The position numbers and the translations under genes are program-made. Shown here in pieces: positions 8,326 to 62,447 of a stretch of 64,000 nt of DNA. Location: the NCBI RefSeq assembly GCF_042453785.1, contig NC_091673.1:813501-877500 (forward strand). Reading direction: 5' to 3'. Position 1 is the first letter of the stretch. The number at the start of each line of letters is the position of its first letter. The DNA comes from Malus domestica. Its lineage: Eukaryota; Streptophyta; Magnoliopsida; Rosales; Rosaceae. The notes under the pieces are model-generated. The model was not told the DNA's origin. It was given only the letters and a program-made list of their open reading frames with translations, and ran no database searches.

Positions 8326-8329
8326 TCAG

Positions 8330-21466: not shown

Positions 21467-23037
21467 TGTTGGAAAATATTAGTATTTAGGTTTACTTTAA
21501 TATTTGGTTTTCTAGGCTTAGCCCGTTAGTATTAGGGTTTAGGGTTAGTTTATTATAAATAGAGTGCTTTGTTATTCATTCGAGATATCAAGCTATTCAC
21601 AATGTAGTCTCTTAGGGTTTTGTAGTCGTTCTGGCATTCTAGTTTGATTAATAATATTCTTATTAATTTGTAGTCTTATTCGTTATGCACTCTGATATTC
21701 AACTTGGTATCAGAGCAGGTTTGATCTTTCGGGATTTAATCTGTTCTTCTTGATAGGTATCCATGTTGTTTGTTTGATAATAGTTTTCAGTGTTTGTTTT
21801 GAAAAGAAAAAAAATTTGATTATGTTTGCTCGAACGACCCACAAGAATCTGCCCCACTTCCGCTGCATCGTCACCCATCCATCAGCCTTCGTACCAGGTC
21901 TGCAACTAGAAACCCAGCACATCTGTTGTTCGTATCCAACACCAGCCGCATCACCACACCGTTTCCTGCACTGCATCCGCACCCTTTGATCGGACCCGCA
22001 CCACTTGCACCTCCGCACCAGACCCATGAAATCGTCTACCCACCACTGACTGCGCTGCCTTCGCACCGTACCCGCATCCTCGCTGCTGCTTTGATCCGCA
22101 CTTCATCGCCTCTGCTATCCCATCGCGTCAAGAATCCCATAATTGAGATCCCATACTGCACTTGGATTTGTTTTCTCTGGAGAACACTGCCCAGATAGAA
22201 GAAGAGAATAAGGAAACAGAAGCCGAAAAATAGAAGAAGAAAAAATGAAAAAAAAAAGGAAAAGAAAGAAAAAGAAAAACCGTTGTCCAATACAAGAAAA
22301 AGTTATATTGTTTGTTGAAGAGGAAAGCATTCGAAAGGTCCCAGGAGAAAGAAAAAAAATTGATGTTGGTTTAGGCCCACACAGGCAGAGAAAAAAAAAA
22401 GTTATGGTTAAGTTTGTTTGAAGGCCCACACAGTTGGTGGCGTTGTTCGTTTGTTGCTACAATTGAGATATGAAAATCTCGTCCGTTTAGTGACGGGTTC
22501 TTTCCATACTCTCAACTCTAGCCAGTTTGCCAGTCAAGTCAAGTCAAGAATCAAGTCAAGTCAAGTTCGCAAGTTCACCAGTTCGCAAGTCAAGTCAAGT
22601 CAAGTTTGCATACCTGCCTGTCTGTCTGTCCGCGTTGCGGAGCCTGCCTGTCTGTCTGTCCGCGTTGCGGTGGAGCCTGCCTGTCTATCTGTCCGCGTTG
22701 CGGCGGAGCCTACCTGTCTGTCTGTCAGCCTAACGGAGCGAGTCCGCATCTGCTTGTTTGCAAACCCATGTCGTATACCGCCATGAGTTTGACGGGGGGT
22801 GTTGGAAAATATTAGTATTTAGGTTTACTTTAATATTTGGTTTTCTAGGCTTAGCCCGTTAGCATTAGGGTTTAGGGTTAGTTTATTATAAATAGAGTGC
22901 TTTGTTATTCATTCGAGATATCAAGCTATTCACAATGTAGTCTCTTAGGGTTTTGTAGCCGTTCCGGCATTCTAGTTTGATTAATAATATTCTTATTAAT
23001 TTGTAGTCTTATTCGTTATGCACTCTGATATTCAACT
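21467..23037 (+). mobile_element. TRIM-type non-autonomous LTR retrotransposon (copy A)
   Basis: Two 238-bp LTRs, 21467-21704 and 22800-23037, begin TGTTGGAAAATATTAG and end GATATTCAACT. They differ at only about three sites by eye. A 5-bp target duplication CTTAT flanks the element at 21462-21466 and 23038-23042. The primer-binding site TTGGTATCAGAGCAGG follows the 5' LTR at 21705 and pairs with initiator tRNA-Met. A G-rich polypurine tract (GACGGGGGG) precedes the 3' LTR. The 1.1-kb interior has no gag or pol. It holds a C-rich section (about 21840-22140), an A-rich section, and two short tandem arrays (22530-22725). It must depend on enzymes of another element. Confidence 0.93.
22530..22725. 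repeat. Two tandem arrays inside TRIM copy A
   Basis: CAAGTCAAGT-type repeats (about 22530-22610) are followed by about four units of 30-36 bp containing CCTGTCTGTCTGTCCGCGTT. Both arrays are absent or replaced by other repeats (GCACTGGCATG units) in the related copy at 36073-37556. Confidence 0.85.
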
Positions 23038-29791: not shown

Positions 29792-32700
29792 ATGGATCAA
29801 CCACCGCACTCGCCGCCGGCAACTTCGTCTGAGGTTTCTGTTGTCGTCGATTCTGCCACCAATGATCATCGTCTCAATCGCCCTCGCATTGGTAATGGAG
29901 ATACAGACAACGACAAGGTGGGGAATCGTATGAATATCTGATGTGGGGACGCAGGCAGGCGTTCGCTTTGGTTTTATTTGTATTTTGTGTTTTTGTTGAT
30001 GGGGTTTTAAATACTTCTTTATTGTTTTAACAAAAATTTGAAAAAGATGATTACTTTATCGACATGCAATGGCTTTCCCCTGTTTTTATTTCATGTGGTT
30101 CAAAAGTTTTTTATTTGTTGTATTAGTTGTAAATTCTTCTGCTCAATTGCTTGAAAGATTGTTAATTGTTTTGGTGTTTTAATGTAATGAGTTAATCAGG
30201 ATTAAGGCGTTGTTAATGACAAAACTTGTTTGATTTCAGGGGAAAAGTAGATGGGGGAATCTGCTAGTTGCCTACAGGACGCTGGGAGTGGTGTTTGGAG
30301 GGCTTGTTACATCCCCACTGTATGTATACCCTTCAATGCATCTCAAGTCTCCCACAGAAGCTGACTATTTGGGTATCTACAGCATCATGTTCTGGACTCT
30401 CACTCTCATTGGGGTTGTCAAGTATGCCAGCATTGCTCTCAATGCCGACGATCATGGCGAAGGTACACTCAAGCTCACTTTTGTTTCACCTTCGAAGAAC
30501 TCCTGGTCCTTACATTTATCCGCTGTCTTCAGTTTATTTATGCTTGTTCACTTCTAGTGGATGTGATTACTGTGTTTGAGCATTTTTGTTGTTAAACATT
30601 TTGCATTCGTTACTTACATTTGGTATGCGATAGGCAACTGGAAATCACACGCGTATACGAAAACCTGTAAAATCAGCATTGTTAAGCCGTGATCATGAAT
30701 GGAAGGTGACATCTTGAGACTGCCCCTAAAAGTTAGACCTTGAGTGTCATTATCCTATATTTCCAAGCATTAACGTTTTGCAGCATGTATCGATAAACCT
30801 CTTGTTTGTATGTCAAGGTGAAGACGAGACGCAAATGTAAATATGAGGGTTCGCTCACGTAATAACATATTCTGATCTGCGTTCACCGATGGATTGCAGG
30901 TGGAACTTTTGCCCTATATTCATTACTTTGCAGGCATATGAATATTGGAATCCTTAATTCAAAGCCTGCAAGTTCAAACTCAAGTCTTTCACGCTCTATC
31001 TTGGATGACGGCATAGAAAACCAGAGTGGGCTTGCCAAGTTTTTCAAGAAAAGTGTAGTTGCCAGAAGGATGTTGCTTTTTATTGCCATGTTAGGCACAT
31101 GTATGGTTATTGGCGATGGTATTCTTACACCTGCAATTTCTGGTATTTCACTGCGCATTCTGTCTTTCGTTTACTTTTGGCAAGATTTATTTACAAATTT
31201 TCTTTTACTTCGATACTTCTATATCGCCAGTTTTATCAGCAATGGATGGAGTGAGGGCGCCTTTTCCATCTCTCAGTTCATGTAAGGATGTCACCTTTTA
31301 TTGCTATGCTAGGCCAATGAGGCCAGTTTTCTGATTAGGAAATTGGAGTGCAATGGTTTAAATGGTATCAGGTTATTACTTCTCCGCTACATTGTTGTAT
31401 CGCATTTGAATTTCTTTGCTATTCTGGTTTATATGTTGCAGCTCTGGTCGAAGCACTTTCGGCAGGAGTCCTTATCATTCTGTTCTTGTTACAAAAGTTT
31501 GGTACATCTCGAGTGAGCTTCCTATTTTCCCCAATTATGGGTACATGGACTTTGGTTACGCCGCTCATGGGAATTTATAGCATCATACGTCATTATCCCG
31601 GCATATTTAAGGCTATATCACCACACTTTATCTTCCATTTCTTTCAAAGAAATGGCAAGGAAGGCTGGCTGTTGCTTGGTGGCACTGTCCTTTGCATCAC
31701 AGGTGACTGTCATATTGATATCAAGATATAGATTATTTAGTATGGAAGATAGACTTGATTACCTTTTGGATCATGTACCTTGCAGTCTTGGAAATAATCA
31801 TTTAATCGATGTTCCCTGTTTAATTCAGGCTCCGAAGCATTGTTTGCAGATCTTGGTCATTTCAACAGAAGCTCTATTCAGGTTCACCTCCAATAACATC
31901 GATATGTCTTTAAGGTTCCATTTCTTTTGTCTCAGTAGGTTTCTGATATATTTTCCTCAACAGATGGCTTTCCTGTTTACAATCTATCCGTCTTTGATTC
32001 TGACATATGCGGGGCAGACAGCATACCTGATCAGGAATCCAAATGATCATGATGATGGATTCTATAAGTTTATACCAAAAAGTATCTACTGGCCTATCTT
32101 TGTCATATCCACATTGGCTGCGATAGTTGCAAGCCAGTCTCTGATATCAGCCACCTTTTCTGTAATTAAGCAATCTGTAGTGCTTGATTATTTCCCTCGG
32201 GTGAAGGTTGTGCACACATCCACTAACAAAGAAGGCGAGGTTTACTCCCCCGAAGTCAACTACATCCTCATGGTTCTCTGCGTTGCTGTCATACTTATAT
32301 TCGGAGATGGAAAAGAAATTGGAAATGCATTTGGTACGTTAATTTTGAAAGCATTATGTGTTACCGTTGGAAAGTTAACATTTTCGTCAACATCTTATAC
32401 AGGCATCTTTTATAATTTTCTGACTATTGCCACAACCTTATTTCAGGTGTTGTTGTCAGTCTAGTCATGCTCATCACTACAATATTGCTGACACTGGTAA
32501 TGATCATAATATGGAGAACACCACCGGTATTGGTTGCTCTTTACTTCTGTGTATTCTTCGTGATGGAAGGTGTTTACGTGAGTGCAGTCTTCACAAAGAT
32601 CGCGGAAGGTGGATGGATTCCGTTTGCCATATCCTTTATACTCGCCTTCATTATGTTTGGTTGGTTCTATGGGAGACAGAGAAAGCTAGAATATGAGTTG

Positions 32701-33300
32701 GCTCATAAGATAACCTTAGACAGACTTGAACAGCTATTATCTGATCCCAGTGTTCAAAGGGTTCCCGGATTGTGCTTCTTTTACACCAACATTCAAGACG
32801 GGCTCACTCCGATTCTTGGACACTACATTAAAAACATGAAATCCCTTCACCAGGTCACTATGTTCACTACTCTTCGATACCTTTTGGTTCCGAAGGTTTA
32901 CCCCCATGAGAGGATTGTTATCAGTGAACTCGGCCTGAAAGGAGTTTATGGGTGCGTTATTCAGTATGGCTATGCAGATGCCCTAAACCTCGAAGGAGAC
33001 GATTTTGTTAGTCAATTAACTAATAGCTTGCAGGCACATATACAGAACACCTCAGGCCGTTTCCCATCTGATCCTTCAGAGGTCCGAGAACAGATATCTA
33101 ATTTGGAAGCAGCGAGGAGTGCTGGCGTACTTCACGTTCGAGGGAAAACAAGGTTTTATGTTGGAAATAACTGCTGCTGGTTCGATAAAATTATGCTACC
33201 ATTTTATGAAGTTCTGCACAGCAACTGTCGGTCCTCTCTGCCTGCTCTCGGGGTGCCTCTGCCTCAACGTATCGAGGTTGGAATGCTTTACGAGGCTTGA
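29792..33300 (+). CDS. HAK/KUP/KT potassium transporter
   Basis: Eight exons: 29792-29917, 30240-30462, 30900-31142, 31231-31281, 31442-31702, 31829-31881, 31964-32333, 32447-33300. They sum to 2181 nt, or 726 aa, with all phases consistent. Family blocks are GEGGTFALYSLLCRH (about residue 115), IGDGILTPAIS, YAGQTAYLI, FSVIKQSVVLDYFPRVKVVH and the C-terminal IEVGMLYEA. The product is a multi-span proton-coupled K+ uptake carrier of the plasma membrane or tonoplast. The usual signature GVVYGDLGTSPLYVY reads GVVFGGLVTSPLYVY here (about residues 58-72). As I recall, this is typical of the rice HAK26/HAK17 branch rather than of high-affinity HAK5. I chose the ATG at 29792, since the frame upstream has no ATG. 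Its 3' end faces the SOS1 remnant. Confidence 0.93.
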
Positions 33301-33633: not shown

Positions 33634-36072
33634 TCAAGGAGCCTGGCAAAAAGAAAGCCTACCTGGTGAATCGATTCTCACTGTTACATCATCCTCACCA
33701 CCCGATTCATCACTCGAATCGTTTACCACATGGCTCTTATTTGGTTCTGTACTTTGCTGCCCTAGAAGACTTGATTGGGCCGTGACTTTTCTCGCTTCAT
33801 AATCCTTTCTCACAGTTGTTGCCCCTTCTGATCTGACTGAAACCAGTGGACTGTTGTGATGAGATGGAACACTTGGATATGATACCTTGTGTGAACGGCC
33901 TCGATACGATGGCATGCTTGGATATGACAGGGTGCGTGGTGGATTAATCGGGCCACTTCTCAGAAAGCTTCGAGCGCACCTCTGTGGATTCACCTTCACC
34001 TTGTTTGCATAACAACATAAGAAAAGAAGTTTGCTTGAGCAAAAAGATAAAACCAGAATTGTATTCGAAGTGCGAAAGAACGTAAAGAAACCAAGCTCAC
34101 CATGCTGCCGTAAATGCTGAACTGCATCGCCCTCGCTGACAGGCTGTTGATTTGTCTGTCAATCCCTTCGGGGTTCTGCTTTTGTTGCTTTGCTTTGAAA
34201 ATGTCCTCAGGCCAACTCATAAGACCACTATGCTCTCTAGGAAGAGACCTGTGAGGATGATGATCAACTCCATTTGATATAAATGAGGATGAGCATCTAA
34301 TCAGAGCACTGTCGGATTCAAATGCTGCAACGTCGAATATGATCACTCTCGACCTTGTTTCAACGAGATAACTGGATCCTTTATGAGAAAAACTGGCTCC
34401 CCTGGTGCCTGTGACCAATCATCGGCAAAAGGTTAATGATTAGCATTAAGGATGGGGAAGTGGTTTATGCAAGAACGAAACTTGTTCTGAGAAGTATCTT
34501 TCGAAACAGAAGTTAATTATTACCTGATGTTTCCAGATTCTGGAAGCTCTGGTAACCATGTGAGGGGAATAGAGGTGCAGGTGATGTGATAAGTTCTTCT
34601 TGGACACCTTGGGTTTTAACGAAACCCTCTAACAGAAATCCAATGGAACGGTATGGAATTTCAAAAGATTCGCCCCTTATGTAAATCGGCATCACTGACC
34701 TTTCCGCAACAAGAGTTCTCAAATCTTGCATTGCCATTTTCTCAAATATTTGTGGAAGGAAAAGTTTCACAAGAGCAATAGAACTTTCCTAAACATAAGG
34801 GGAATTAAACAAATCAGTTCCAGAGTTCATACCATTGTATTATCTTTTCACTTGCCATGCATTACAAAGTTTGATTAAAACACGTTATTTTGAGAAAGTA
34901 CCGAAAATTTGACAAACAGAACTCTTCGTGTAGTTTTGGTAGCTGTAACAAGCTGGAATTTTTAGTAAGCAGCTTGGACTCCTGATTTAAAATGATTTTT
35001 TGTTTTAGCAAATGAGGCCATAGTTAGATATAGTGACCTTTAACTTTCACACCAGTATCTTTAAGCTTGAAAGTTACTAGGACTAACAAATGCCTAAGCT
35101 TGAAAGTTACTGGGACTGAAATATGTTGCTAAATTTACCATTCAAAAGACGTTCACGTATATCCTTCAAATTTGTAAGATGCGGATCATTGCCACTTTCT
35201 GATGCCTTGTGAGGGTGTACAGGTTCGGTGTCAATGTCATTTAAGCTTGCAATATATCTTTTCACAGTTGGCCAGTCAGCAGGTCCCAACTCCTCGTCAT
35301 CTCCAAGATCGCCAAAAGCCTCTAATGCTTTGTTCAACATTTCATATTTTGTGTACTCCAGCACGCGCCTCTGTAACAAGACAAAGATATAGAAACCAAA
35401 TGCATAAACGGAAGAAAATTCTCATAACAAGTGCCCAAATGGATTTCCACCTTCAAATGGATTTACAGCTGCATGAAATGTTGAGGAATTACTTGAAAAT
35501 TATAAGCCCGAAACAAAGAACAGAAACATAAAGCAGTACCACACGTCTACAAGGACAATGTGGTTAAACCTCACCTTAGCTGCTGATAGCTTGTCCAGAT
35601 CTAGAAGGCGTAAAATGAATTGTGTGGTGGAACCATTCACAATTAGTGTCAAAAAGACAATTCCACCAGTGAAAAAAACAAACTGCAAAGATTTAAACAG
35701 ATTTCTTAAATAAGTATCTCAAGTGATGTCCAATGTTAATTAATTCGCTTTGTTTGCAAATCTAACATACTACACGCTAAAAGAACAGACAAACATGATT
35801 TTCTGTGGGCAAGCAGTCACGCTCCAGATACATACCAGGACTCCGGTATCAGAACTGATAAGTGCAGAACTGTCACTAGTTTTCTGCAAGAGTAAATGTA
35901 AATCAATTAGAAGCCATAAAAATCATGGGTATTCAGAAGGAAAAAAAAATAGAGAAGACTGAGGTTTAGCAGCTGGTTTATTGAGAACGGACAGCTTATG
36001 ATGCACCATCCAACTTGAAAAGAAAAAAGTAACGAAATAAACAACAGCGGGGATTGATTTTCAACCACAAGG

Positions 36073-37556
36073 GTTAGAAAAAATTATTATTTAGATTTAT
36101 TTTATTGTTTGGTATTTTGAGCTTAGTCCGTTAGTATTAGGGTTTCGTTTTCTTGTCTATTAGGGTTAAGTTAGTTATATATATATATGGTACTTTGTAA
36201 CTCTATAGAATAATAAGTCATTCACAATGTAGTCTCTTGGAGTTTTGTAGTCGTTTTGGCATTCTTGTTTGTTTAATAATTTTCCTACTATTTTGTAGTC
36301 TTGTTCGTCGCACACTCTGATATTCAACTTGATATGCAGGTTTGATTCTTTGGGATCAGTCTGCTTTGGTTTGGTATCAATTTGTTGGCTGAAAATTGTT
36401 TGGTTTCATTTCGAATCTTGATTAGGCTTCCGCTTATGTTCGATCTGGTGAATGCATGTTTGTTTTCTGTCTTCATTTGGAATCGATTTGTTTGTCTTTA
36501 TTGTCTCCGTTGTTCCTTTACTTTAGTTGTCAGATAATAGTTTGGAAAAAGAAAATATCAGGAACTGAAATAGCTGTCAACCGCGCCGTAGTCTGAAGAT
36601 TGAACTCGTGAAACGAGATCGCATTGACCCGCCCACACTACACGTACCGCACCACCTGCTTTGCCTGCCCACCAGTCGCGACACCACCTTCATCAGCACC
36701 CTATCCGTTTTCTACACCCGGCCGCAATTGTATCCGCACCAACTCGTTCTGCAATGTGCAATGGAATTGATTGCTGCATTGTTTTACGTGATCAGGAGAA
36801 GACCCCAGGTAAAAAGAAAAGAAAAGAAAAGGAAAGGGAAAAAAAAGTACAAAAAAAAAAAAAGGAAAAGTAAATTCGTTGACCTATAATGAGGATTGTT
36901 TTGTTGGGTCATTTGTTGCGTGCACAAGAGTTCTGTTGGAACAATGATCACTCGAGTGCTTGGACTGGTGATCACTCGAGTGACGTTGTGGACAGAGTAA
37001 ATTTGATTTTTTGTTTGTTTGTTCGGAAGTTGGAATTTGCACTGGCATGGAAATTTTGCACTGCCACTGGCATGGAATCTTGCATTGGCACTGGCATGAA
37101 ATCTTGCACTGGCATTGACATTGAAATCTTGCACTTGCACCAGTGAAGTTTCGTATTGAAATTGGCATTGGAAATTAGCATAATGGAGCTTGCATCCGCA
37201 TTTACTTGTTGACAAACTCATGTCGTGTACCGCATGAGTTTGATGAAGGTGTTGGAAAATATTAACTCATGTCGTGTACCACATGAGTTTGATGAAGGTG
37301 TTGGAAAATATTATTATTTAGATTTATTTTAATGTTTGGTATTTTGGGCTTAGCCCGTTATTATTAGAGTTTCGTTTCCTTGCCTATTAGGGTTATGTTA
37401 GTTTTCTATATATATGGTATTTTGTAACTCTATAGAATAGTAAGTCATTCACAATGTGGTTTCTTAGAGTTTTGTAGCCGTTTTGGCATTCTTATTTGTT
37501 TAATAATATTCCTACTATTTTATAGTTATATTCGTCGCAAATTCTGATATTCAACT
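36073..37556 (+). mobile_element. TRIM-type LTR retrotransposon (copy B), in an SOS1 intron
   Basis: LTRs are 36073-36329 (257 bp) and 37299-37556 (258 bp), diverged at many sites. A 5-bp target duplication CAAGG lies at 36068-36072 and 37557-37561. LTR ends GATATTCAACT and starts TGTTGGAAAATATTA are shared with copy A (21467-23037), as are the TTTGATTCTT interior start and the CATGTCGTGTACCGCATGAG block before the 3' LTR. The 5' LTR start has lost a base, and the primer-binding site is eroded (TTGATATGCAGG). The interior of about 970 bp has no gag or pol. Orientation is opposite to the SOS1 gene. It is older than copy A, judged by LTR divergence. Confidence 0.9.
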
Positions 37557-39273
37557 CAAGGTACTAATGAAATATTGCGAGAGTGCCACACCAACAAGGT
37601 ATAAAAGTTAAATTTTGCTTTGCATAAACAAAAGTTTGTAAATAACAATAACTTGCCTTCACTTCACTGACAGTGAAAGTGACAACGCTACAGCCCCTCG
37701 TAGACCTGACCATATAAGGATTATAGCCTCTTTCCAGTCCAAACCATAGCCAAAATACCGGAGAAGGGGAAATGAAACTGCAACAACTATGAACCGGGAA
37801 ACTTGAACGTAAACATAGAGAAGAATGAGGTAGAACCAAGATTTTCCTGAAACAAAAACGATTAGTTACAGGGAAACAAGTTGAATAAATATCTGCAAGA
37901 ACATATACATGAAAAATAAATATTTAAAAGGTACACGGCGGGAAACAACAAAAATATGCAGTAGTGTTAAGCTTGACTGTTCGGCCTTTGTACTTTGGAA
38001 GATTCCGCACCTGATCGGCCTGTGTTTGTGTGTGCGCGTGTGCGTATGCATAATTATGACTAAGCAAGTGACATATATTTATGAATACATAAATGCATAT
38101 CTATATGTTTGAAAAGTAAGGATTACCATGATCAAAAACATTTTCACCGCTAAGAACACCTTCAGCTATAACAACTCCACTGAAAAACAAAACAAAAACA
38201 GAAAATGTGTTTTAATGGATGTAAATCATGATCAAGCAAATGGTACAGTAAGTTAGTTCTGTTCTCCCTTTAATTATTGTCACGAAACAAAACGCAATTA
38301 AAGAGTGCTCGATTATGCACTTACCTCAAGATGAAAATTAAGGTATTAGCAATATAAGCAACCATTTCCCTGCGCAATATTCATAGAGTACGAGCAATTA
38401 AAATTTCAATCGAGAGTAGATTCAAGAGGCATTTTTCATCAAACAATTCACATATTTGCTGTATCTTTCGGTTTAAGAGATTATTAACAATAGGATGAAT
38501 TTACTCATGAATTGGACCTTTGTTTAAACAAACAGACTGCCTTTAGTTTAACGTGATAACCACAACCACAAGATATACCAGAAATGATGTAAACTTTGTT
38601 GGCTTTCACCCTTAAAAGCTGTCCTTGCAACTCCAGCGTAAAACCTGTCCACAGATTATAACATTAGGATAAATGTATTCTCCAGTGTGTAACGAGATCT
38701 TATTGGGAAATTCAGCTTACATTCCTAAAGTCATCACCGTCAAGACACCAGACACGTCCGCACCCTCTTGAGCCTGTGGCACCCGAATTAAATGTCTCAG
38801 TTTTTTCATACAGAAAACAGGCAACTAATCACCAAAATTTTCCAGATAAGTGAAATGCATTATAATATGCTAACTGGAATGCATATCAACCGTCTTTACG
38901 CTAGAAAAAAATCATATGAAACAGTTTATTGTTGACAATCATTGGTTATTTTTCGGAAAGAACGGACATAAATTTGGAAAGGATGATACATGCAAGTGGC
39001 CAACTCCCCAGTCATGTTGGAAATTATAATATAAAATATTGTAATATATAATTTTAATAATTAAATGAAAAATAGTGTTAACCATATTTTTTAGAAAGGT
39101 TATGTTATTTAGATGCATTCCCTTATCAAATGATGTATATATAGATGAAAAATTACATCTCTTTAACAAGAAGTACTTGGGTGCTATATAAACCCATGAA
39201 ACCATTGGTATTAGATGATAGAAAATTAGAGTTAATTTTTACTCTTGAGAAATAGGGTTTCCCCACTTTGTTT

Positions 39274-42200
39274 TGTTGAAAAGACAATAAAATATGTTAA
39301 AGGTTCTCTACTCCCACGCTGGACAGAAGGCATATGGACAGAAGGAATAAGATCATTCTTTCACAGCTAAGTTAGCATGTGTGTTGCACTATTAACGTGG
39401 ACAGCAAGGCCACTGCATGTGGTTACTGACAGCTTCAACAAAAACAGCATGGGTGCCTCTTTCTTTCCTTTGTTTATTACATGCGTCTGTAATTATCTTG
39501 TATATATGTTCTGCTGCCATTACAGCAGTTGTAGGAATTCAAAATATATTTTTCACATGGTATCAAGAGCTAGGCCAAAACCCTAGTCCTATTTTCTTCT
39601 GTTATTTCTCTTTGACTGCTGTTCATCACAAGCAGCGCGTTTTTTTTTTCCTTTCCATTGATATTAACAATGGCCGATGATCGAACTTCGAGCGAAAGCA
39701 AGCCTGATGCTTCCAATCCATTGTTCATTCATCATTCAGACCACCCAGCTATGGTGCTGGTCTCGAAACCCCTTAATGGGGACAACTATTCCACCTGGTC
39801 CCGAGCCATGAAGATTTCCTTGAGTGCTAAAAACAAGATTGTTTTTGTTGATGGCACTGTTCCACAACCGTCAGCAAAAACCCAGCCGAACGATCATGCT
39901 GCATGGAAGAGATGCAACGACATGATTGTTGCCTGGATCATCAACTCAATCGATTCAGATATTTCAGACAGCATTCTCTACATGACTAGCGCTCATGAGA
40001 TTTGGGACGAATTGGAAGAGCGCTACTCCCAAAGCAATGCTCCTCGGATTTTTCAATTGCAGCGGGATATTTCGTGTCTTTCTCAAGATCAACTCTCTAT
40101 TGCAGCCTATTATACCAAGTTGAAGAGTCTGTGGGACGAGTTGTCTTCTTACAGTGATTCATCTTCATGCACATGCGGTGCTCAAAATGAAAGGAACAGG
40201 TTGATGCAGTTTCTTATGGGACTCAATGATTCATATAGTGCTATTCGAGGACAAATCCTCTTGATGAATCCCTTGCCTACTGTACGTCAAGCTTACTCCT
40301 CAATATCACAAGAGGAGAAACAACGCTCTTTGAGCCTTTCTCGCACCACCACTGCAACAGCAGCCATGGCAGTTCGCCAGGGCCACCACTCCAAGTCCGC
40401 AGGTTCCTCCACTCGAAAACCCATGCATTGTACGCATTGCGATCAAGATTACCACACTATTGATACTTGCTACCAGTTGCATGGGTACCCACCTGGGCAT
40501 CGTCTTCATAAGACCAACAAATCCAATCCACGTGGTGGGAATCGCTCCAAGCGAGACACTGGCTCTTCGTCAGCCAACATAGTTTCCTCAGAAGGACCTT
40601 CTATACAAGAAATGCAGTCCGTGATGTCAGGTTTATCAGATTCTCAGTTTCAGCAAATTCTCAGTATCATGAATGGGAAGGATGTATCCGCTACCCCTCA
40701 AGCCAATGCTACCACCCTTACCAAAGGTTTGTCAAAAAATCATTCGCATCTCCATCGATGGATCATCGATAGTGGTGCGACAGACCACATCACCTCTTCA
40801 CCGAAACTGCTTACTAATGGTGTGAAAAATGATAATATGTTGCCAGTTTTATTGCCAAGTGGAGAACAAGCACCTATTGCATTAACCGGAGATTTATCTT
40901 TGAATTCTACCTTCTTACTCCGAGATGTGTTGTGTGTGCCTACTTTTAATGTAGATTTGATGTCAGTGAGTCGAATTACTGGAGGATTAAATTGTTCCGT
41001 CACTTTTTTTTCCACTTGGTGTATTTTGCAGGATCTGACCACGAAGAGAACGATTGGTTTGGGTAAGCAGCGAGGAGGACTTTACTATTTGGTGGCGTTG
41101 GCTCCTGTCCAAGATGGCACTTCGAGACGTTTCTGTAACATGGTCCTATCACCTACAGAGTTGTGGCATCGTCGTTTAGGTCATTTGTCATCATCTAGAT
41201 TAGATTTCATGTCCAAAACTATGTTACACTTTCCTTTCCAGTCAAATAATGCTTGTGATGTTTGTCCATTAGCCAAGCAAAGTCGTTTACCTTTTGGTGT
41301 TAGTACCATTGCAACCCAGAAACCCTTTGCTTTAATTCACTGTGATATTTGGGGTCCTTATAAAATTGCCTCCACTTGTGGCGCCAAATATTTTTTAACC
41401 ATAGTCGATGATTATTCTCGTTTCACATGGATCTTTCTTATGCAACACAAAAATGAGACTCAACATCTCCTTAAGAATTTTTTCTCTTATGTTCGTACTC
41501 AATTTGATACACTTGTTTGTCAAATCCGTGTTGACAATGGAGGTGAATTTTTTTCCCTTCGTGATTTTTTCCAAGAACACGGTGTCGTATACCAACACTC
41601 TTGTGTTTATACGCCCCAACAAAATGGGGTTGTAGAACGCAAGCATCGTCACATTCTTGAGACAGCACGTAGTTTGCGTTTCCAAGCCCACCTACCACTT
41701 CGTTTTTGGGGTGAATGTGTGCTCACGGCCGTCCACCTTATTAATCGTCTTCCTACCAAAATTCTTTCCAACACTACACCTTTTGCACGTCTCTATTCCA
41801 AATCACCCACCTATTCCCACCTACGAGTCTTTGGATGTCTTGCCTATGCCACCAACACTCACGTTTCTCATAAGTTTGCTCCCCGTGCCCATAAGTGTGT
41901 TTTTCTAGGATATCCTGTTGGTCAAAAAGCCTATAAGCTTTACGACCTCACCACCCATAAGTTTATTACCAGTCGTGATGTCATTTTCCACGAACATATT
42001 TTCCCTTACCAAAATCACTCCACCTCCGATGACCAACTTCCCCTTCCCGGACCTGTCTTACCTCAACCCCTTCCTGACTACACTGTTCTCTCTACAACTC
42101 CTTCCGCGTCCACCATTTCTCCCGTGTTACCTGTTGAGTCTTCTACTCGTCCACCTACAGAGTCCGATGCTCCAACTCTCTCAGTCCCTGCTACTGCCAT

Positions 42201-44277
42201 AACAGCGCTCCCAGCGCCCGTACCCCCCGCACCTTCTGTGCCTGTGCTTCGTCGCTCTGACCGACGCTCTACTCCTCCAACTCGCTTCAGTGATTATGTT
42301 TGCCCTACTTTGCCTTCTTCCCAACCAATCGATTCTTACTCTTCGTCGCCAGGTCCTACCACCGGTACCAGGTATCCTCTCGCTAATTTCCTCACTTATC
42401 ATCGTTTCTCACCCCAACAACAATCTTTCCTTGCTTCTATTAGTCAGCAGGTTGAACCCCACACTTATGCTCAGGCTGCCCTTCATCCCCATTGGCAAGC
42501 TGCCATGGACTCTGAATTGCATGCTTTGGAGGACACTAATACTTGGACAGTCACTACTCTCCCTGCCGGGAAAACTCCCATTGGTTGTCGTTGGGTGTAT
42601 AAGATCAAACATCGTTCTGATGGTTCTATTGAACGTTATAAAGCTCGCCTCGTCGCCAAGGGTTACACTCAACTTGAAGGTGTTGATTATCACGATACCT
42701 TCTCACCTACTGCTAAGATGGTCACTGTTCGTTGTTTATTAGCCCTAGCTGCTGCCCGTACTTGGTCTCTTCACCAACTTGATGTCCACAACGCTTTTCT
42801 TCATGGTGATCTCCATGAAGAACTCTATATGACCCTACCTCCTGGTCTTCGGCGACAGGGGGAGAATCTCGTGTGTCGCCTTAATAAATCCCTTTATGGC
42901 TTGAAGCAAGCTTCCCGGCAATGGTTTGCAAAGTTTTCAGAAGCAATTAAATCCGCTGGTTATATTCAATCAAAGGCAGATTATTCTTTATTTACGAGGC
43001 AGCAAGGGCAATCCTTTATAGCCCTTCTGATCTATGTTGACGATATCTTAATCACCGGCAATGATCCTGAAGGAATTAATGCTCTTAAAAGGTTTCTTCA
43101 TGGTCACTTCAAAATCAAGGATCTTGGTAACTTAAAGTACTTTCTAGGAATAGAGGTTTCACAGTCAAAGAAAGGGATTTTTATTTCTCAGCGAAAATAC
43201 GCTTTAGAAATTTTGAAAGATAGTGGTCTTTTGGGAGCTCGCCCAGTGGAGTTTCCTATGGAGCAGAATACTAAACTCTCTAACACTGGTGAGTTGCTTA
43301 AAGATCCGGCAAAGTATAGAAGGTTGGTTGGTCGATTGATCTATTTAACCATTACAAGGCCGGACATCACTTATCCCGTGCATGTGTTAAGTCGATTCAT
43401 GCATGAACCACGACAACCGCACATGGAAGCAGCCCTCCGAATTCTGAAATACTTGAAGAGTACGCCTGGACAAGGTTTGTTTTTCTCTTCTCAAAACAAC
43501 TTGAACTTAAGCGCATATTGCGATTCAGATTGGGCGGGATGTCCTACAACACGAAGGTCAACTACAGGTTATTGCGTTTTTTTGGGCTCTTCTTTGATCT
43601 CTTGGAGGTCAAAGAGACAAAAGACCATTTCTTTATCATCCGCAGAGGCCGAATACAGAGCCATGACTGGAACTTGTTGTGAACTGTCATGGCTTCGATA
43701 TCTTCTAAGGGATTTAGGTTTGCTTCATCCAAAACCGGTCTTGCTGCATTGCGACAACAAAGCAGCGCTCCATATTGCTGCTAACCCAGTCTTTCATGAA
43801 CGAACTAGACATATAGAGATTGATTGTCATTTTATTCGAGACAAGATACAAGATGGTTCAGTCATCACAAGGTACATTCCTTCTTCAAACCAGCTTGCAG
43901 ATGTGTTCACAAAGGCATTAGGAAAGGAGGCTTTCTCATCCATCATATGCAAGTTGGGAGTACTCGATGTACACTCTCCAACTTGAGGGGGAGTGTTGAA
44001 AAGACAATAAAATATGTTAAAGGTTCTCTACTCCCACGCTGGACAGAAGGCATATGGACAGAAGGAATAAGATCATTCTTTCACAGCTAAGTTAGCATGT
44101 GTGTTGCACTATTAACGTGGACAGCAAGGCCACTGCATGTGGTTACTGACAGCTTCAACAAAAACAGCATGGGTGCCTCTTTCTTTCCTTTGTTTATTAC
44201 ATGCGTCTGTAATTATCTTGTATATATGTTCTGCTGCCATTACAGCAGTTGTAGGAATTCAAAATATATTTTTCACA
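39274..44277 (+). mobile_element. Complete Ty1/copia LTR retrotransposon in an SOS1 intron
   Basis: LTRs of 284 bp each, 39274-39557 and 43994-44277, begin TGTTGAAAAGACAATAAAAT and end TTTTTCACA. I see no difference between them by eye. Target duplication TGTTT lies at 39269-39273 and 44278-44282. The primer-binding site TGGTATCAAGAGC starts at 39558; the polypurine tract GAGGGGGAG abuts the 3' LTR. One open polyprotein gene fills the interior. Equal, apparently identical LTRs and an intact frame indicate a recent insertion that may still be competent. It lies antisense within the intron between SOS1 exons 7 and 8. Confidence 0.97.
39670..43986 (+). CDS. Copia Gag-Pol polyprotein, intact
   Basis: A single frame of 1438 aa from ATG 39670. 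Domain order is Gag (UBN2-like, about 30-230), CCHC zinc knuckle (CTHCDQDYHTIDTC, about 254-267), aspartic protease (WIIDSGATDHI, catalytic Asp 367), and integrase. Integrase shows an HHCC finger from WHRRLGH at about 499 and DDE-core pieces CDIWGPY, VDNGGEF and NGVVERKH. Next come reverse transcriptase (CRWVYKIKH, LDVHNAFLHGDL, and YVDD at 1122-1125) and RNase H (SWRSKRQKTISLSSAEAEYR, ending ADVFTKALG). Integrase before reverse transcriptase defines Ty1/copia. Gag and Pol are in one frame, so their ratio must be set by another route, such as splicing or processing. I saw no premature stop. Confidence 0.97.
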   Translation: MADDRTSSESKPDASNPLFIHHSDHPAMVLVSKPLNGDNYSTWSRAMKISLSAKNKIVFVDGTVPQPSAKTQPNDHAAWKRCNDMIVAWIINSIDSDISDSILYMTSAHEIWDELEERYSQSNAPRIFQLQRDISCLSQDQLSIAAYYTKLKSLWDELSSYSDSSSCTCGAQNERNRLMQFLMGLNDSYSAIRGQILLMNPLPTVRQAYSSISQEEKQRSLSLSRTTTATAAMAVRQGHHSKSAGSSTRKPMHCTHCDQDYHTIDTCYQLHGYPPGHRLHKTNKSNPRGGNRSKRDTGSSSANIVSSEGPSIQEMQSVMSGLSDSQFQQILSIMNGKDVSATPQANATTLTKGLSKNHSHLHRWIIDSGATDHITSSPKLLTNGVKNDNMLPVLLPSGEQAPIALTGDLSLNSTFLLRDVLCVPTFNVDLMSVSRITGGLNCSVTFFSTWCILQDLTTKRTIGLGKQRGGLYYLVALAPVQDGTSRRFCNMVLSPTELWHRRLGHLSSSRLDFMSKTMLHFPFQSNNACDVCPLAKQSRLPFGVSTIATQKPFALIHCDIWGPYKIASTCGAKYFLTIVDDYSRFTWIFLMQHKNETQHLLKNFFSYVRTQFDTLVCQIRVDNGGEFFSLRDFFQEHGVVYQHSCVYTPQQNGVVERKHRHILETARSLRFQAHLPLRFWGECVLTAVHLINRLPTKILSNTTPFARLYSKSPTYSHLRVFGCLAYATNTHVSHKFAPRAHKCVFLGYPVGQKAYKLYDLTTHKFITSRDVIFHEHIFPYQNHSTSDDQLPLPGPVLPQPLPDYTVLSTTPSASTISPVLPVESSTRPPTESDAPTLSVPATAITALPAPVPPAPSVPVLRRSDRRSTPPTRFSDYVCPTLPSSQPIDSYSSSPGPTTGTRYPLANFLTYHRFSPQQQSFLASISQQVEPHTYAQAALHPHWQAAMDSELHALEDTNTWTVTTLPAGKTPIGCRWVYKIKHRSDGSIERYKARLVAKGYTQLEGVDYHDTFSPTAKMVTVRCLLALAAARTWSLHQLDVHNAFLHGDLHEELYMTLPPGLRRQGENLVCRLNKSLYGLKQASRQWFAKFSEAIKSAGYIQSKADYSLFTRQQGQSFIALLIYVDDILITGNDPEGINALKRFLHGHFKIKDLGNLKYFLGIEVSQSKKGIFISQRKYALEILKDSGLLGARPVEFPMEQNTKLSNTGELLKDPAKYRRLVGRLIYLTITRPDITYPVHVLSRFMHEPRQPHMEAALRILKYLKSTPGQGLFFSSQNNLNLSAYCDSDWAGCPTTRRSTTGYCVFLGSSLISWRSKRQKTISLSSAEAEYRAMTGTCCELSWLRYLLRDLGLLHPKPVLLHCDNKAALHIAANPVFHERTRHIEIDCHFIRDKIQDGSVITRYIPSSNQLADVFTKALGKEAFSSIICKLGVLDVHSPT

Positions 44278-46065
44278 TGTTTCTCTCATGCTTTGTGTGT
44301 CAAATTCCGAGTTGTGTCTTGAGAGTACGGAATATATAAAGTTCTTCAGAGTCCGAAGATTGAAGTGTTTTGACTTCGGATTATAAATTGTTGAATCATA
44401 GGAGATGGAAGCCTACCGAACTACAAACACAAGAGTATAGGCGAAATTATGTCTTTAGGACATTGCATTTATGCAAGCCTCAATCTTCAAGTTTGTCTGT
44501 TTTTCTAACTTTATCTCTAGTTGTTTATATTAATCTTGTATACAATTGATGTTGTTATTTTCTTTATGATTATTATCATTGGAATTTTCGTGTTATTTTC
44601 ATATTTTCTAATAAGTCACACGTAAAAGTAACTGCAGAACTATCACTAGCATTTCTACTACAGGTTCAATCGTAAGACTTCTGGACCAGTTCATATGTAT
44701 CTATTGACATGCCAAAAAGCAATTTGGAATTATGATCATCTGAACTTAACAATGAAGCATCCAATTTTGAAAAGGAACATACAGTGAAGTAAGCAACATA
44801 GCTGACAGCAAGTGTTAGTGTGATCTCTATCACGGTGTCATTGAAAATAAACCCGAGCCAGAGTACAGATACTATGCCAAAAGCAAGACCAATGCCTACA
44901 CTGGAACAATAAAAGAGTTATTTATGCGAGACAAAGCTGCCATCTCTGCTCAAAGAAATGTGTGACACATACGCTCCAAATGTGACTTGAGATAGAAATT
45001 TAATTATGGCGGCCCAGTCATAGCTCTTTCCAAGGACCATCTGATAAAATAGCTGGTACACCACAATTGCTGTCCTGGACGAAATTAAACACATTCAGAT
45101 TAGAGAAGATATGAAAGGCATAATTACACAAAGGTTGTAAATCTATATCCATTGTTCAACAACAACAAAGTCTTTTCCTAGTAAGTGAGGTCGGCTAAAA
45201 ATCTATACCCATCATTCATCAAGGATTCTCCTTCAATTATCGTACTCAGCTTTTTGCTAGCACCAAGCTCTTTTAACAGAGCAACAACAGCCACAGGATC
45301 AGTGGCGCTAAGAAGCCCCCCAAGCAACAGTGATGTTTTCCAACTCCAGTCATAAGGGAAAGTGAGCTGCAGTTGTATATGACAATATAATTATATAACT
45401 CCAACATATAGTCTAATTAGCAAAGTTTAGGATACCTTCAAAGCAGATCCAAGGACAAAGGTTGATATTAGAACACCCGGACCAGCTAGTATCATCATTT
45501 GTACTATACACCTCTGCAATTAAGATAGAAAAATCTGCCGGTTCATTTCATACCTCACGTATATAAGTTTCCGACTTTCCATGATCGTGAATATGCAGAA
45601 CAACAACGCGATAAAAGAAGAACAAAATAAAAAACTATATAAGTGACCTTTATTTGGTGCACCTCCATAGAAAACTAGAAAAACAGCCAAAAGAAGATCA
45701 GGATCAATATTTGCCCCTGCACCACAGCAGAAAGCCCTCCAAGTCAAAAACAACACAAGGATGCAAAGCCTATAACCGCGTTGCGCTTGCTATTTCAGCA
45801 AACATGTAAAGCTGGAACTTACAAATTCGAATTCCGGCTCCAATCCTCCTCATTTGATGATGTGTGCCATATTCTGCATGTTTATCAACCATTAATTATC
45901 AACCATATATGATGTGACATGTGTGTTATTTAACTCGTTACTTTCTAGCTGACTTTTTTGACAACAAACAAAGAAAAAGTTGTATATTTAATTGAATTTT
46001 TTAATACATGGGTCCCATTAACAACCAATAGAATAAAAATGACAATTAATTTTGGTTATTTTTTA

Positions 46066-46218
46066 GGGAACTTTAACGAAAAACTTTCAGTACTATTTAT
46101 TTTAACGAAAAACCACAATTTTACACTAAAAAGTCAATCATGATACTATTCACTTTAGCCTTTATTTTGTCATTATCGTTAAAACTCAAAGTTATCAAGC
46201 CATTATCATTAATTTTCC
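46066..46218 (+). mobile_element. Apple-type TTAACG MITE, copy 2
   Basis: It begins GGGAACTTTAACGAAAAACT, contains ACACTAAAAAGTCAATC and ATCGTTAAAACTCAAAG, and ends ATTAATTTTCC. The ends are an imperfect inverted repeat. It closely matches 50321-50472 and 61285-61437. Confidence 0.85.
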
Positions 46219-47405
46219 TTATTTTTTAATAGTTAATGTAAATCTAGGCCCAATAAAATAATAAAATAAATATTTGACACATCTATTGGAAAAGAAGAGA
46301 ATTTAACACTTGTATTCAATTTGACACATCAACCATCAAATAAAATTTTGACATATTATATTTGAGATCTCATTTTTGGAGATGCTCTAATAAAGACACA
46401 AAGCAGAGAGTACCATCCCACCATCTGAAATGGGCTGACAAAGAATTAAGTAGTTTTGTGTCTCACTACGATTGCATGGTTGTTGCTCAATATTCCTCCT
46501 TATATTCAATTACTTCTGTTCTTAGAAATCTCACAGTTGAGATGCTGCTTTTAATTTTGTTAAACCTTGGCTCATCCTTTTCCTAGGAATTATAGGAATC
46601 CCATGATCTCATCCGTTCATTGTATATCGTGCGGTCAGTTTTAGTTAGATACTATTCATATTTAATTTTAAATTTTAAAATAATTTCTAACCGTACGATA
46701 TACTATAAACGGGTGAGATTAATCCGGAGATGCATGTTTTTGACACGTTTTTTGAAACGGAAGATAGACAGTTAGATCGTTGAAAAACGTTACAGAGGGA
46801 GCTCACAAAAACGTACGTGAAAAGCCTGTGTCCCAGATCGTAACCATATGTATAATCCAAAATTGAAAACAAGAAGCTTCTAACTTTTTTATGATCATTT
46901 TTAAGATTCAAATCACTGAAACCAGCAAAAATACAAAGTTTGATAACTAGCTGCAATTAAAATTAGATTAAACCCAATAATTAAAATAATAATAATAATA
47001 ACAAGAAGAAGAAATGGAAGAGAGTGAGAGAGAGGCCTATGGAGCCGAGGCCAATGCCAAGGATGAGCAGAGCGACGGTGTAGGGAACTCTGGTACCAAG
47101 CAGCAGATGCCTGCAGGCGATTCCTAACACCAAACACAACCCCAAGAACGCCACCGCGTTAGTCGGATCCGACGAGCTATCTTCTTCTTCCTCCGCCACC
47201 GCCAAGATTCTGTACGGTAACTGCCATGCCGTCACCGTCGCCATTTCTCCAAGCTCAAAAGCTCTACTCTTCGACCACAATTTTAATTCCGGTTTTAGCT
47301 GAAAAAGCTTGAAGCTTGAAGCTTTTGACTTCTGATTAAGCAATAAGCAGCAGCAGGCTAAGGTGGTGACCCGCGAGCTGCTTTTTCAGGTGCTCCCTTC
47401 CGCGA

Positions 47406-47745: not shown

Positions 47746-48084
47746 AAAGGTGGTCGAAGCTGATTGATACGATCATTATCAGTCACGTTTCGTTCTGTCA
47801 CGGCCCACTATGCCTGACGTTTTTTGCTTTTGAATGTTTTATTGAAGCGTCGATTTGTCAAATAATCGCCTGACTGCGAAGCGAGTTTTTCTGAGCGAGT
47901 GAAATTCCTCGGAATGTGGCGCCCGCCCTTCATTTTTCACAACGGATTTTGTGAACGATGAATTCAGTGTCCTCCGACTAATGTATTATTTTTTATTTAT
48001 TTGTCCATGTTTGTCTCCTGATCACAAATCTTGACGGATTGCCGGCAGCCAAATTAAGCAATTTCTTCATTGTTATTTTCGCCA

Positions 48085-48910
48085 AGTTGTCTCCGATGCA
48101 ATATTTGGACCAAAAGTTCTACACTGTTTTGATGCATTTTATTTTTCAATATTTTAACGATTAAAACTTGATTAAGGTTTTAATAGCTAAATTTCTCAGA
48201 GAATAAATTGTCAAAAATCGTAATTGAAATACTTATAGTTTTAGATGATAATATAAAGGCAGAGGGGAAAGCTTTGGTGTTCAAGAATAAATGCTCTCTT
48301 TACACAAGAGCCATCAAAGTTGTCTCCGATGCAATATTTGGACCAAAAGTTCTACGATGCTTTGATGCATTTTATTTTTCAAGATTTTAACAATTAAAAC
48401 TTGATTAAGGCAGAAGGGAAAGCTTTGGTGTTCAAGAATAAATGCTCTTTACACAAGAGCCATCAAAGTTGTCTCCGATGTAATATTTGGACCTAAAGTT
48501 CTACGATGCTCTAATTCATTTTATTTTTCGAGATTTTAACAATTAAAACTTGATTAAGGTTTTAATAGTTAAATGTCTCGAAGAATAAATTGTGAAAAAT
48601 CTTAACTGAAATACTTATAAAGGCAAAGGGGAAAGCTTTGGTGCTCAAGAATAAATGCTCTTTACACAAGAGCCATCAAAGTTGTCTCCGATGCAATATT
48701 TGGACCAAAAGTTCTACGATGCTCTGATGCATTTTATTTTTCGAGATTTTAACGATTAAAACTTGATTAATGTTTTAATAGTTAAATGTCTCGAAGAATA
48801 AATTGTGAAAAATCTTAACTAGAATACTTATAGTTTTAGATGATAAGATAAAGTCAGAGGGGAAAGCTTTGGGGTTCAAGAATAAATGCTCTTTACCCAA
48901 GAGCCATCAA
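48085..48910. repeat. Tandem array, four units of 150-230 bp
   Basis: The word GTTGTCTCCGATG with ATATTTGGACC starts units at 48086, 48319, 48468 and 48681. Full units run through GATTAAGGTTTTAATAG, AGAATAAATTGT and AAAGCTTTGGTGTTCAAGAA to ACAAGAGCCATC. The second unit lacks an internal section of roughly 80 bp. Copies are about 90 percent alike by eye. No coding function recognised. Confidence 0.9.
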
Positions 48911-49396
48911 ATCTGTCACTTGGGTTAACGTTACGAGTTCGAAAGAGACTTTGGAAATATCAGACAATGATAACTGCTTACATAAGATAGAGCTTGCTCA
49001 AAATAGACCATACTCAAAGGATGAGAGAAGCTTAGGTTGGCTAACTCATCAACAACAAAATACTTTCAGTCATTTTAAGAGCACTTTTAAACGAGCCTTA
49101 TATTTTTTGTAATTATTTATAGAAATGTAAAAGGATATTATTATTATTTTAATATTTTTTTGGAAAGAAAAGAATGACAAATAAAAAATGGGACAGTTAG
49201 CAACTTAGCACTAGGCATCAAATCAAATGCGTTAATATTTTCACTGATGAGTGGAAAGGGATTTTTTATTTTTTATTTTTTAATTTAAAAAAAAAATGAT
49301 ATTATCTATTATAGGGGTGGGAAGTGAGTTAAGCTTCACAATGGATGAGCCAAAATAATGTGGTTCAAATTCGCCTTTGACGATAATCGAACCTAA

Positions 49397-49880: not shown

Positions 49881-50320
49881 AGAAAGACTCTCACTTACAA
49901 GTGAAGATAAATATAACTAAACAATAATACTAACTAATTGACAAATGGAAATGGATTCCTTAAAAAAAATAAAATCAGGAAAAAGATTACGTAAAGGGAT
50001 AATTAAGGCACTAACCAAACACATTATCATTCCAATTACGAAAGCAATAATTAAGGCACTAATCAAGATTACGTAAAGGAATAATTAAGGCACTAACCAA
50101 CTGAATTTTAAATTGTTTTTTGTCAACCGTCATTTTAATTTTGGCTAGGGCAATATTGTAATTTGAAACCCATTCACGTCTTTGGAATAATGTTACAGCA
50201 TCACGTAACGAGTAGTTGTTAACTTGTTATGTGTATCTTTTTCTTCTTTGGAATAATGTTATAGCATTACGTAATGAGCTGCTAAGTTGGTAGCTGTCAT
50301 TTTGTTTCTTTTTTTGTAAG

Positions 50321-50472
50321 AGAACTTTAACAAAAAGCTCCCGGTACTGTTTACTTTAACGAAAAACCACATTTTTACACTAAAAGGTCAATCCTGGTAC
50401 TATTTACTTTACCATTTATTTTGTCCTTATCGTTAAAACTCAAAGTTTTCAAACCATTTTCATTAATTTTCC
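50321..50472 (+). mobile_element. Apple-type TTAACG MITE, copy 3
   Basis: Same element as 46066-46218 in the same orientation, with words ACTTTAACGAAAAACCACAT, ACACTAAAAGGTCAATCC and ATTAATTTTCC. Confidence 0.85.
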
Positions 50473-50614
50473 TTTTTGTACATGATAGGGTAACATTTCA
50501 AGCTCATACAATCATATAGTTTGGTTGTCCCGTGGTGCTCTATCTAGTGATACTTCTATCAAACTTCAACTTCTTTTTTTCTTTCTAATCAAACTTCAAC
50601 TTGCTACTCAGTAC

Positions 50615-55400: not shown

Positions 55401-55909
55401 GTACAGTTATACTTCCGATTATGCAAAGGCGAAAGCAAGATTATTGATGTTCTCTAGACAGGATTAATGAGACTGAATCGATTTTTGGATTATCATAGTT
55501 CTTCTTTCCATTTGTACCATGATTTGTGCCTTGCTGCATTATGATTTTTCTTCTTCCTTATTATTCATTGAAATTTGTGTGATAGTATAGAGTTTTCATC
55601 CCTACATACAGCAGAGCATATATTTATTATGTCTTCCTCTTTCTATCACTTGTGTGGCTGGACTAATGAGAGTTCTTGGTTTGCGACAGGTCTTTCCTAT
55701 GCGGTGGATCTACTGGCCTCTTCATCTATGGGTATTGCTTGTATTATTACTACGCCCGTTCAGATATGACCGGCTTTATGCAAACGTCTTTCTTCTTCGG
55801 TTACATGGCTTGCATTTGCTACGGCTTCTTCCTCATGCTTGGCACCGTAGGTTTCCGCGCGGCTTTGCTGTTTGTTCGTCACATTTACAAGTCCATCAAG
55901 TGTGAGTAG
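52433..55909 (+). CDS. Transmembrane 9 superfamily (nonaspanin, EMP70) protein
   Basis: Seven exons: 52433-52581, 52714-52754, 53100-53685, 53793-53930, 54025-54181, 54279-54763, 55690-55909. They total 1776 nt, or 591 aa, with all phases consistent. A cleavable signal peptide (MKNLLTALPLAVLIACTATL) is followed by a long lumenal domain starting with YNEGDAVPLYANKVGPFHNP. That block and YRYFDLPFC are EMP70 hallmarks. Nine membrane spans follow, with LPWYR, AFLPF-like GFLPFSAIYIEL and GYMACICYGFFLMLGTVGF. The C-terminus KSIKCE carries the Lys-based Golgi-retention type tail (KxD/E-like). Members sit in Golgi and endosomes and help sort other membrane proteins. Length fits the short TMN1/TMN2-type branch. 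The last exon has a broken duplicate at 62217-62447. Confidence 0.95.
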
Positions 55910-56250
55910 GTGGTCAGTTGATGGGTCTTTCGACCAGGTCCTCGTTTCTTCCTTTTTTATGATAGGAAAAAGTCGGTATTTTTGTCAGAAGGTAGGCGAG
56001 AGGGTGCCTTCAGAAGCAGAGGAATGGGCGAGCTTTCCCGAATCAAGTCCTTTCGGGGCCTCTGTTGCGCGTTTGCTTCAGGCGTTTGGGAAAATTTGGG
56101 GAATTAGGGTTTTGCCTTAACTATTCTTCACTAGATGTATGTCGTAGAATAGAAGTATGAATGTGGGGGGAACAGAAGAGATTGCTGTATGGCCACATTT
56201 TACCCCACTCTCTGAAATGACTCTTTCCATATTAGCTTACCCTTACTGTT
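55685..56250 (+). repeat. Segmental duplication, copy 1 (last TM9SF exon and 3' flank)
   Basis: This stretch, from the end of the last intron to CCATATTAGCTTACCCT, matches 62215-62775 closely in the same orientation. The match resumes at about 57185-57770, after roughly 940 bp not present in copy 2. Confidence 0.92.
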
Positions 56251-61872: not shown

Positions 61873-62216
61873 TGGAAAACTAATTTTGGATTTGGAATCC
61901 TTTTTCCCAACTGTGGGTTAATGCTTTCACAAAGGTGCGTTGTATATGGAGAATATTTTGCTGACCATGTTCAAGTGATTGTCATTTCACCATTCTATTT
62001 ACACTGTTTGATGAGTTTAAAGATCTATGTAGTGAGTAAACATAAATCTCAAAACTCTTAAACTCATCTAATAATAATAATTAGGGTGGTGAACAATAAT
62101 ACCACTACTTAAGATTAGTGTGAGTAAAATGCACCCAAAATAATCAAGAAGATTATTATTAGATCAGTGTGAGTGTCATTTTCTTTCAAAAGTAAATAAT
62201 GTTGAATTTTATTTGC

Positions 62217-62447
62217 AACAGGTCTTTCCTATGCGGTGGATCTACTTGCCTCTTCATCTATGGCTACTGCTTGTATTATTATTACGCCCGATCAGATATG
62301 TCTGGCGTTATGCAAACGTCGTTCTTTCGGTTACATGGCTTGCATTTGCTCCGGCTTCTTCCTCATGCTTGGCACAGTAGGTTTTCGCGCGGCTTTGCTG
62401 TTTGTTCGTCACATTTACAAGTCCATCAAGTGTGTGTGAGTAGGTGG
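62217..62447 (+). pseudogene. Duplicated, frameshifted last exon of TM9SF
   Basis: It begins at an intact acceptor (GCAACAG) and reads SFLCGGSTCLFIYGYCLYYY, nearly identical to residues 519 onward of the intact gene. After MQTSFF it loses 2 nt relative to TTCTTCTTCGGTTAC, which shifts the frame. The nucleotides of the rest, up to KSIK and the stop region, are still present. The other six exons are absent here. The 3' flank is also duplicated up to about 62775. Confidence 0.9.

Follow-up and report, generated by a model that had tools for sequence, protein, structure and literature searches.

A 64,000-nucleotide stretch of Malus domestica DNA (the window; C13:813501-877500, from a single assembly of 651,096,769 bases in 19 contigs) carries on its minus strand a locus for the salt-tolerance antiporter SOS1. 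This locus is almost certainly a duplicated pseudogene, namely one homoeologue of a pair left by whole-genome duplication, which would have lost its function through small insertions and deletions (indels), mutation of a splice donor and a larger deletion of the microhomology type. Such a loss is the ordinary fate of a duplicate gene. Three SOS1 loci are found in the genome: the dead one described here and two in the collinear block of C16, where copy A has a shortened tail and weaker constraint and copy B is sound as judged by its sequence.

The first-pass annotation, made from the letters of the window, had recognised 18 exons of a multiply broken gene, and all of these could be placed on the minus strand, with the ATG at 47244 and the stop codon at 33634 as the two ends of the locus. 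Its remark that many good splice sites survive is borne out by AG at all 17 internal acceptor sites and GT at 15 of the 17 donors; the GC donor of intron 12 is native, both C16 copies having the same GC-AG intron (AAG/GCAAGT). To that account we add the nature of each lesion, the extent of the exon deletion and the intronic position of the transposon insertions. Given that 17 introns are still in place, a processed pseudogene was ruled out, and the genome also holds an uninterrupted paralogue in copy B.

The identity of the gene is clear from the C13 exon peptides in the conserved frame, which match the PDB entries for AtSOS1 (7y3e, E 8.8e-291) and OsSOS1 (8iwo, E 2.5e-288) with bit scores of 890-970, against about 290 for SLC9C1 and about 80 for NHE1, so ranking the Na+/H+ exchanger domain nearest to SOS1 within the SOS1/NHX7 lineage. 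The alignment consists of two blocks, and AtSOS1 residues about 541-854 are left unpaired. When these residues and their rice counterpart were searched by tblastn on the 64-kb window, only exon 16 was found, all other matches having E values of at least 0.34; relocation of the lost exons elsewhere in the window was ruled out, as nothing matched besides exon 16. The available part of PMC10372031 gives the limits of AtSOS1 as 32-450 for the membrane domain, 458-722 for the alpha C-terminal domain (alpha-CTD) and 732-883 for the CNB-like domain. By these limits, the missing sequence covers 182 of 265 alpha-CTD and 123 of 152 CNB-like residues. The long cytosolic part (alpha-CTD, CNB-like domain and autoinhibitory tail) is thus incomplete in the C13 copy, with the tail kept.

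Several independent lesions had been claimed, and four are observed, all private to the C13 copy and missing from both C16 copies. Intron 1 begins with GC where copies A and B have GT. Exon 3 carries a net 23-nt deletion, such that the exons spliced without modification lose the frame there and reach a stop at residue 141. At the end of exon 12, a 5-nt tandem duplication creates an in-frame TGA and a frameshift. The fourth lesion is a deletion that removed exons M2-M5 whole and most of M1, of which 18 nt are left. The pentamer TTACT occurs twice in copy B at the breakpoints, copy A has TTACT and TTACC, and a single TTACT remains in C13. Because of the exon 3 frameshift, the exon 12 TGA, the altered donor and the deletion, no uninterrupted frame runs over correctly spliced exons. 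A loss of one donor base was considered for the exon 12 lesion and ruled out, since copies A and B reveal the 5-nt duplication together with the native GC-AG intron.

Features of the SOS1 locus on C13, in window coordinates
Feature	Position	Strand	Remarks
SOS1 (NHX7-type plasma-membrane Na+/H+ antiporter), very probable pseudogene	33634..47244	-	18 of the 23 exons of C16 copy A recognisable
Exon 1 with ATG	47037..47244	-	Intron 1 starts GC; GT in C16 copies A and B
Exon 3, net 23-nt deletion at 45675-45678	45648..45716	-	69 nt against 92 in A and B; frameshift
590-bp solo-LTR-like insertion (LTR, long terminal repeat), intron 7, copia nested inside	39015..44613		AGTCA flanks; not in A or B
Ty1-copia element, intron 7	39274..44277	+	Single frame, 1456 codons stop to stop; target-site duplication TGTTT; not in A or B
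5-nt tandem duplication, exon 12 end	37656..37667	-	In-frame TGA and frameshift; single unit in A and B
TRIM/LARD-like element, intron 12	36072..37593		Repeats 36073-36329 and 37300-37556; ACAAG flanks; not in A or B
Exons 15 and 16, flanking the deletion	34524..35370	-	Mutually out of frame once spliced together
Deletion junction, TTACT microhomology	34957..34973	-	1268 nt against copy B, 1442 against copy A
Exons 17 and 18, tail including DSP motif	33634..34408	-	Conserved frame open

In apple, chromosome 13 is the homoeologue of chromosome 16. The stretch compared, C16:796-856 kb, keeps the order of the window, with some gaps, between window positions 11.3 kb and about 63 kb, remnants of HAK and the TMN gene included; the window's initial 11 kb lie outside that comparison. 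It had been suggested that another SOS1 copy, retained after genome duplication, might have made the loss tolerable, and that a second intact copy should be sought in the same genome. The C16 block holds two tandem copies, A (C16:818298-825949, 23 exons) and B (C16:829967-838397, 22 exons), and it is B that answers the description of an intact gene: its model of 1162 aa has a terminal stop only, acceptors of AG throughout, and donors of GT except for the GC at intron 12. In a whole-genome search with 511 aa from the C-terminal part of B, which scores the best candidates only, all 15 reported matches fell in A, B or the C13 locus. The duplication in question is most likely the apple/pear one, an identity that we infer.

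The model of copy A extends for 1117 aa up to a TAA in its last exon, beyond which a TGA occupies the position of the first DSPS serine and a TAG follows six codons on, where C13 and B have TTT. The accessible portion of PMC10372031, citing earlier work, describes S1138 in this motif as the phosphorylation site and S1136 as helping to place SOS2, and reports that an S1136A/S1138A mutant still gave wild-type tolerance in yeast with SOS2-SOS3. Between '...VTFPQ' and 'VLRVV' (C16:831843-832072), copy B is missing, precisely, one intron found in copy A. The copy A intron is flanked by similar CTCAGGTTT motifs, and loss through short-repeat recombination would fit its absence from B.

The relative timing of these events was approached through Kimura two-parameter (K2P) distances in 13 of the 17 introns (all but introns 1, 7, 12 and 15), which are 0.171 between C13 and A, 0.170 between C13 and B, and 0.113 between A and B (1582, 1704 and 1964 sites, respectively). 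These distances group A with B, and therefore the tandem pair on C16 arose after C13 and C16 had split. The conserved frame of the C13 copy has no stop in 825 codons, a count that excludes the exon 3 lesion and the last part of exon 12. This places an upper bound of 0.029-0.042 per site (95%, transition/transversion ratio 0.5-3) on neutral divergence since the loss, which is about one third to half of what each lineage has accumulated after the split, namely about 0.085 (half the distance of 0.170, with a clock assumed).

Substitution patterns were compared over 817 codons, where lineage-specific synonymous and nonsynonymous changes number 46 and 58 in the C13 copy, 36 and 72 in A (with 4 more in its three stop codons), and 26 and 25 in B. 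The omega of the C13 lineage (0.38) does not differ significantly from that of B (0.29; Fisher p = 0.49), whereas A differs from B (p = 0.04) and not from C13 (p = 0.12). Among 498 columns of exons 1-15, sites common to AtSOS1, OsSOS1 and the other two copies are changed 4 times in C13, 13 times in A and twice in B. If B is taken to show the constrained rate, the neutral share works out at 0.13 of the C13 branch (bootstrap -0.30 to 0.41) and 0.45 of the A branch (0.05 to 0.93). A relative-rate test of C13 against AtSOS1, with OsSOS1 as the outgroup, gave no excess of change for C13 (29 window-specific and 42 AtSOS1-specific changes, p = 0.15). The absence of stops and the small number of altered conserved residues point to a loss that is recent when set against the duplication, in agreement with the first-pass annotation. 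It seems that constraint on the plainly dead C13 copy lasted until late, and copy A, though nearly full-length, has drifted more.

Three insertions in introns 7 and 12, all missing from A and B, help to order the events at the locus. The terminal repeats of the TRIM-like element in intron 12 are identical at 231 of 257 sites and differ at 26 (K2P 0.110, standard error 0.022), and the copia element, whose open frame encodes gag, integrase and reverse transcriptase domains, has LTRs without a difference over 286 sites and is therefore young. A second, related TRIM/LARD-like element lies at 21467-23037, with terminal repeats 98.7% identical, compared with 90% for that at 36072-37593.

These insertions raise the question of whether one of them (copia, solo-LTR-like or TRIM-like) silenced SOS1 first and the other lesions followed, which would be consistent with their absence from A and B and with the solo-LTR-like insertion being outside the dating. 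We consider this improbable. The copia element is young, every insertion is intronic, and the TRIM-like divergence of about 0.055 per copy exceeds the bound on divergence since constraint was lost; a divergence of 5% would predict 3.6-5.2 stops, and none is observed. The likely order is thus insertion of the TRIM-like element, then loss of function, then copia. Given that the sampling ranges of the TRIM-like age and of the loss overlap, this argument against silencing by a transposon is likely and not proven.

Given that our evidence comes from one assembly, the lesions might instead reflect misassembly of a gene that is intact in the plant. This is very unlikely, however, as the lesions are of four kinds (an altered donor base, a net loss of 23 nt, 5 nt duplicated, and 1.27 kb deleted at a 5-bp microhomology) and all resemble ordinary mutations, the adjacent HAK and TMN models are clean, and the C13 introns are diverged from A and B throughout, such that the locus cannot be a collapsed copy of either. 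Slightly less probable still is that the locus remains functional through a truncated product, such as a small piece of the antiporter or a regulatory RNA. The open conserved frame of the exons and the mostly intact splice sites would suit such a product, but the spliced exons terminate early in the membrane domain (by the limits taken from the part of PMC10372031 cited above), the intron 1 donor is altered, and the join of exons 15 and 16 is out of frame. Some points do weigh against the interpretation of the locus as a recently lost duplicate. With one assembly used, any of the lesions might in principle stem from an error in it or represent an allele specific to one haplotype, the C13 locus was read from genomic sequence alone and copy B judged in the same manner, and the dating presumes equal neutral rates across exons, introns and LTRs. 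Moreover, the bootstrap range of the C13 neutral share includes zero and is wide, and therefore the date of loss is loose by that measure.

With these caveats in mind, we propose that whole-genome duplication left SOS1 homoeologues on C13 and C16, and that the C13 gene would have remained under purifying selection through much of the time after the split. Its function would then have been lost through small indels, the splice-donor change and the microhomology-type deletion of four whole exons and most of another, the order of these lesions being presumed. On C16, the gene was tandemly duplicated, giving A and the sound copy B. The loss on C13 was probably neutral because SOS1 persisted on C16, with B presumably supplying the function. 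The available part of PMC7016215 cites work in which MdSOS1 overexpression gives salt tolerance and MhSOS1 is salt-induced, and a working SOS1 therefore exists in Malus.

Directly beside SOS1 in the window is a HAK/KUP potassium transporter gene (29792-33300, plus strand) with a clean 726-aa model, and a TMN gene likewise gives a clean model of 591 aa. The C16 counterpart of the HAK/KUP gene (C16:828400-829630) is decayed, such that only parts of the first and last exons are left, the last with four stops at positions of sense codons in the window and several indels. Within the block, two adjacent cation-transporter genes thus show opposite losses, of SOS1 on C13 and of HAK/KUP on C16, a reading that for HAK covers the C16 block alone.

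Several repeats were observed in the window. Tandem units about 87-95% identical lie immediately upstream of the dead SOS1 (48084-48917), and a degenerate tandem block with about 66-72% pairwise identity occupies 8314-9868. The 3' end of the TMN (EMP70) gene is accompanied by a truncated tandem copy (62163-62774), wherein 62212-62774 is 88% identical to 55680-56243. A dispersed repeat of about 150-180 bp, by its size resembling a miniature inverted-repeat transposable element, occurs at 46049-46223, 50299-50477 and 61285-61441 with 85-91% identity, and is present in the C16 block too. A scan of the window for tRNA genes found none.

The block offers a small, well-resolved example of the reciprocal loss of adjacent transporter genes after polyploidy, and this, together with the apparent reliance on one sound SOS1, is what makes it mildly interesting. 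Because copy A is drifting, with 13 changes at conserved sites and a stop before its DSPS motif, the genome may depend on B alone; we regard this combined picture of reciprocal loss, a drifting A and a single sound SOS1 as tentative and rather unlikely to hold in full. Were the pattern of loss to vary between Malus lineages, segregation for Na+ efflux capacity could arise in crosses. We recommend that studies separate the three SOS1 loci, because results from primers or reads that do not distinguish them would be misleading. Under exact phrases, the open-licence literature gave no report of SOS1/NHX7 pseudogenes or loss, and nothing on an SOS1 pseudogene on apple chromosome 16; the accessible portions of open-licence work on SOS1 with MD13G/MD16G identifiers name no SOS1 locus.

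Compared with AtSOS1 (7y3e, 8jd9) and rice SOS1 (8iwo), the C13 copy is homologous over the membrane domain, the beginning of the alpha-CTD and the tail; unlike them, it is without AtSOS1 residues about 541-854, its frame is broken in exons 3 and 12, and its intron 1 donor is altered. The C16 copies share its exon order, and their exons with short flanks are 88-97% identical to those of C13 (35 of 36 comparisons mapped at both ends), but they keep the exons lost from C13 and are free of the four lesions, with A having its own last-exon stops. The pattern is that of other duplicated pseudogenes formed after polyploidy in apple and pear, in which one homoeologue is lost and the other kept, and there is no difference of principle. 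As far as the available text of PMC11965797 states, 70% of apple/pear ohnologues are kept in all genomes analysed, and thus the loss of a duplicate is no rare event. The adjacent HAK/KUP pair differs from the SOS1 pair in having been lost in the opposite direction.

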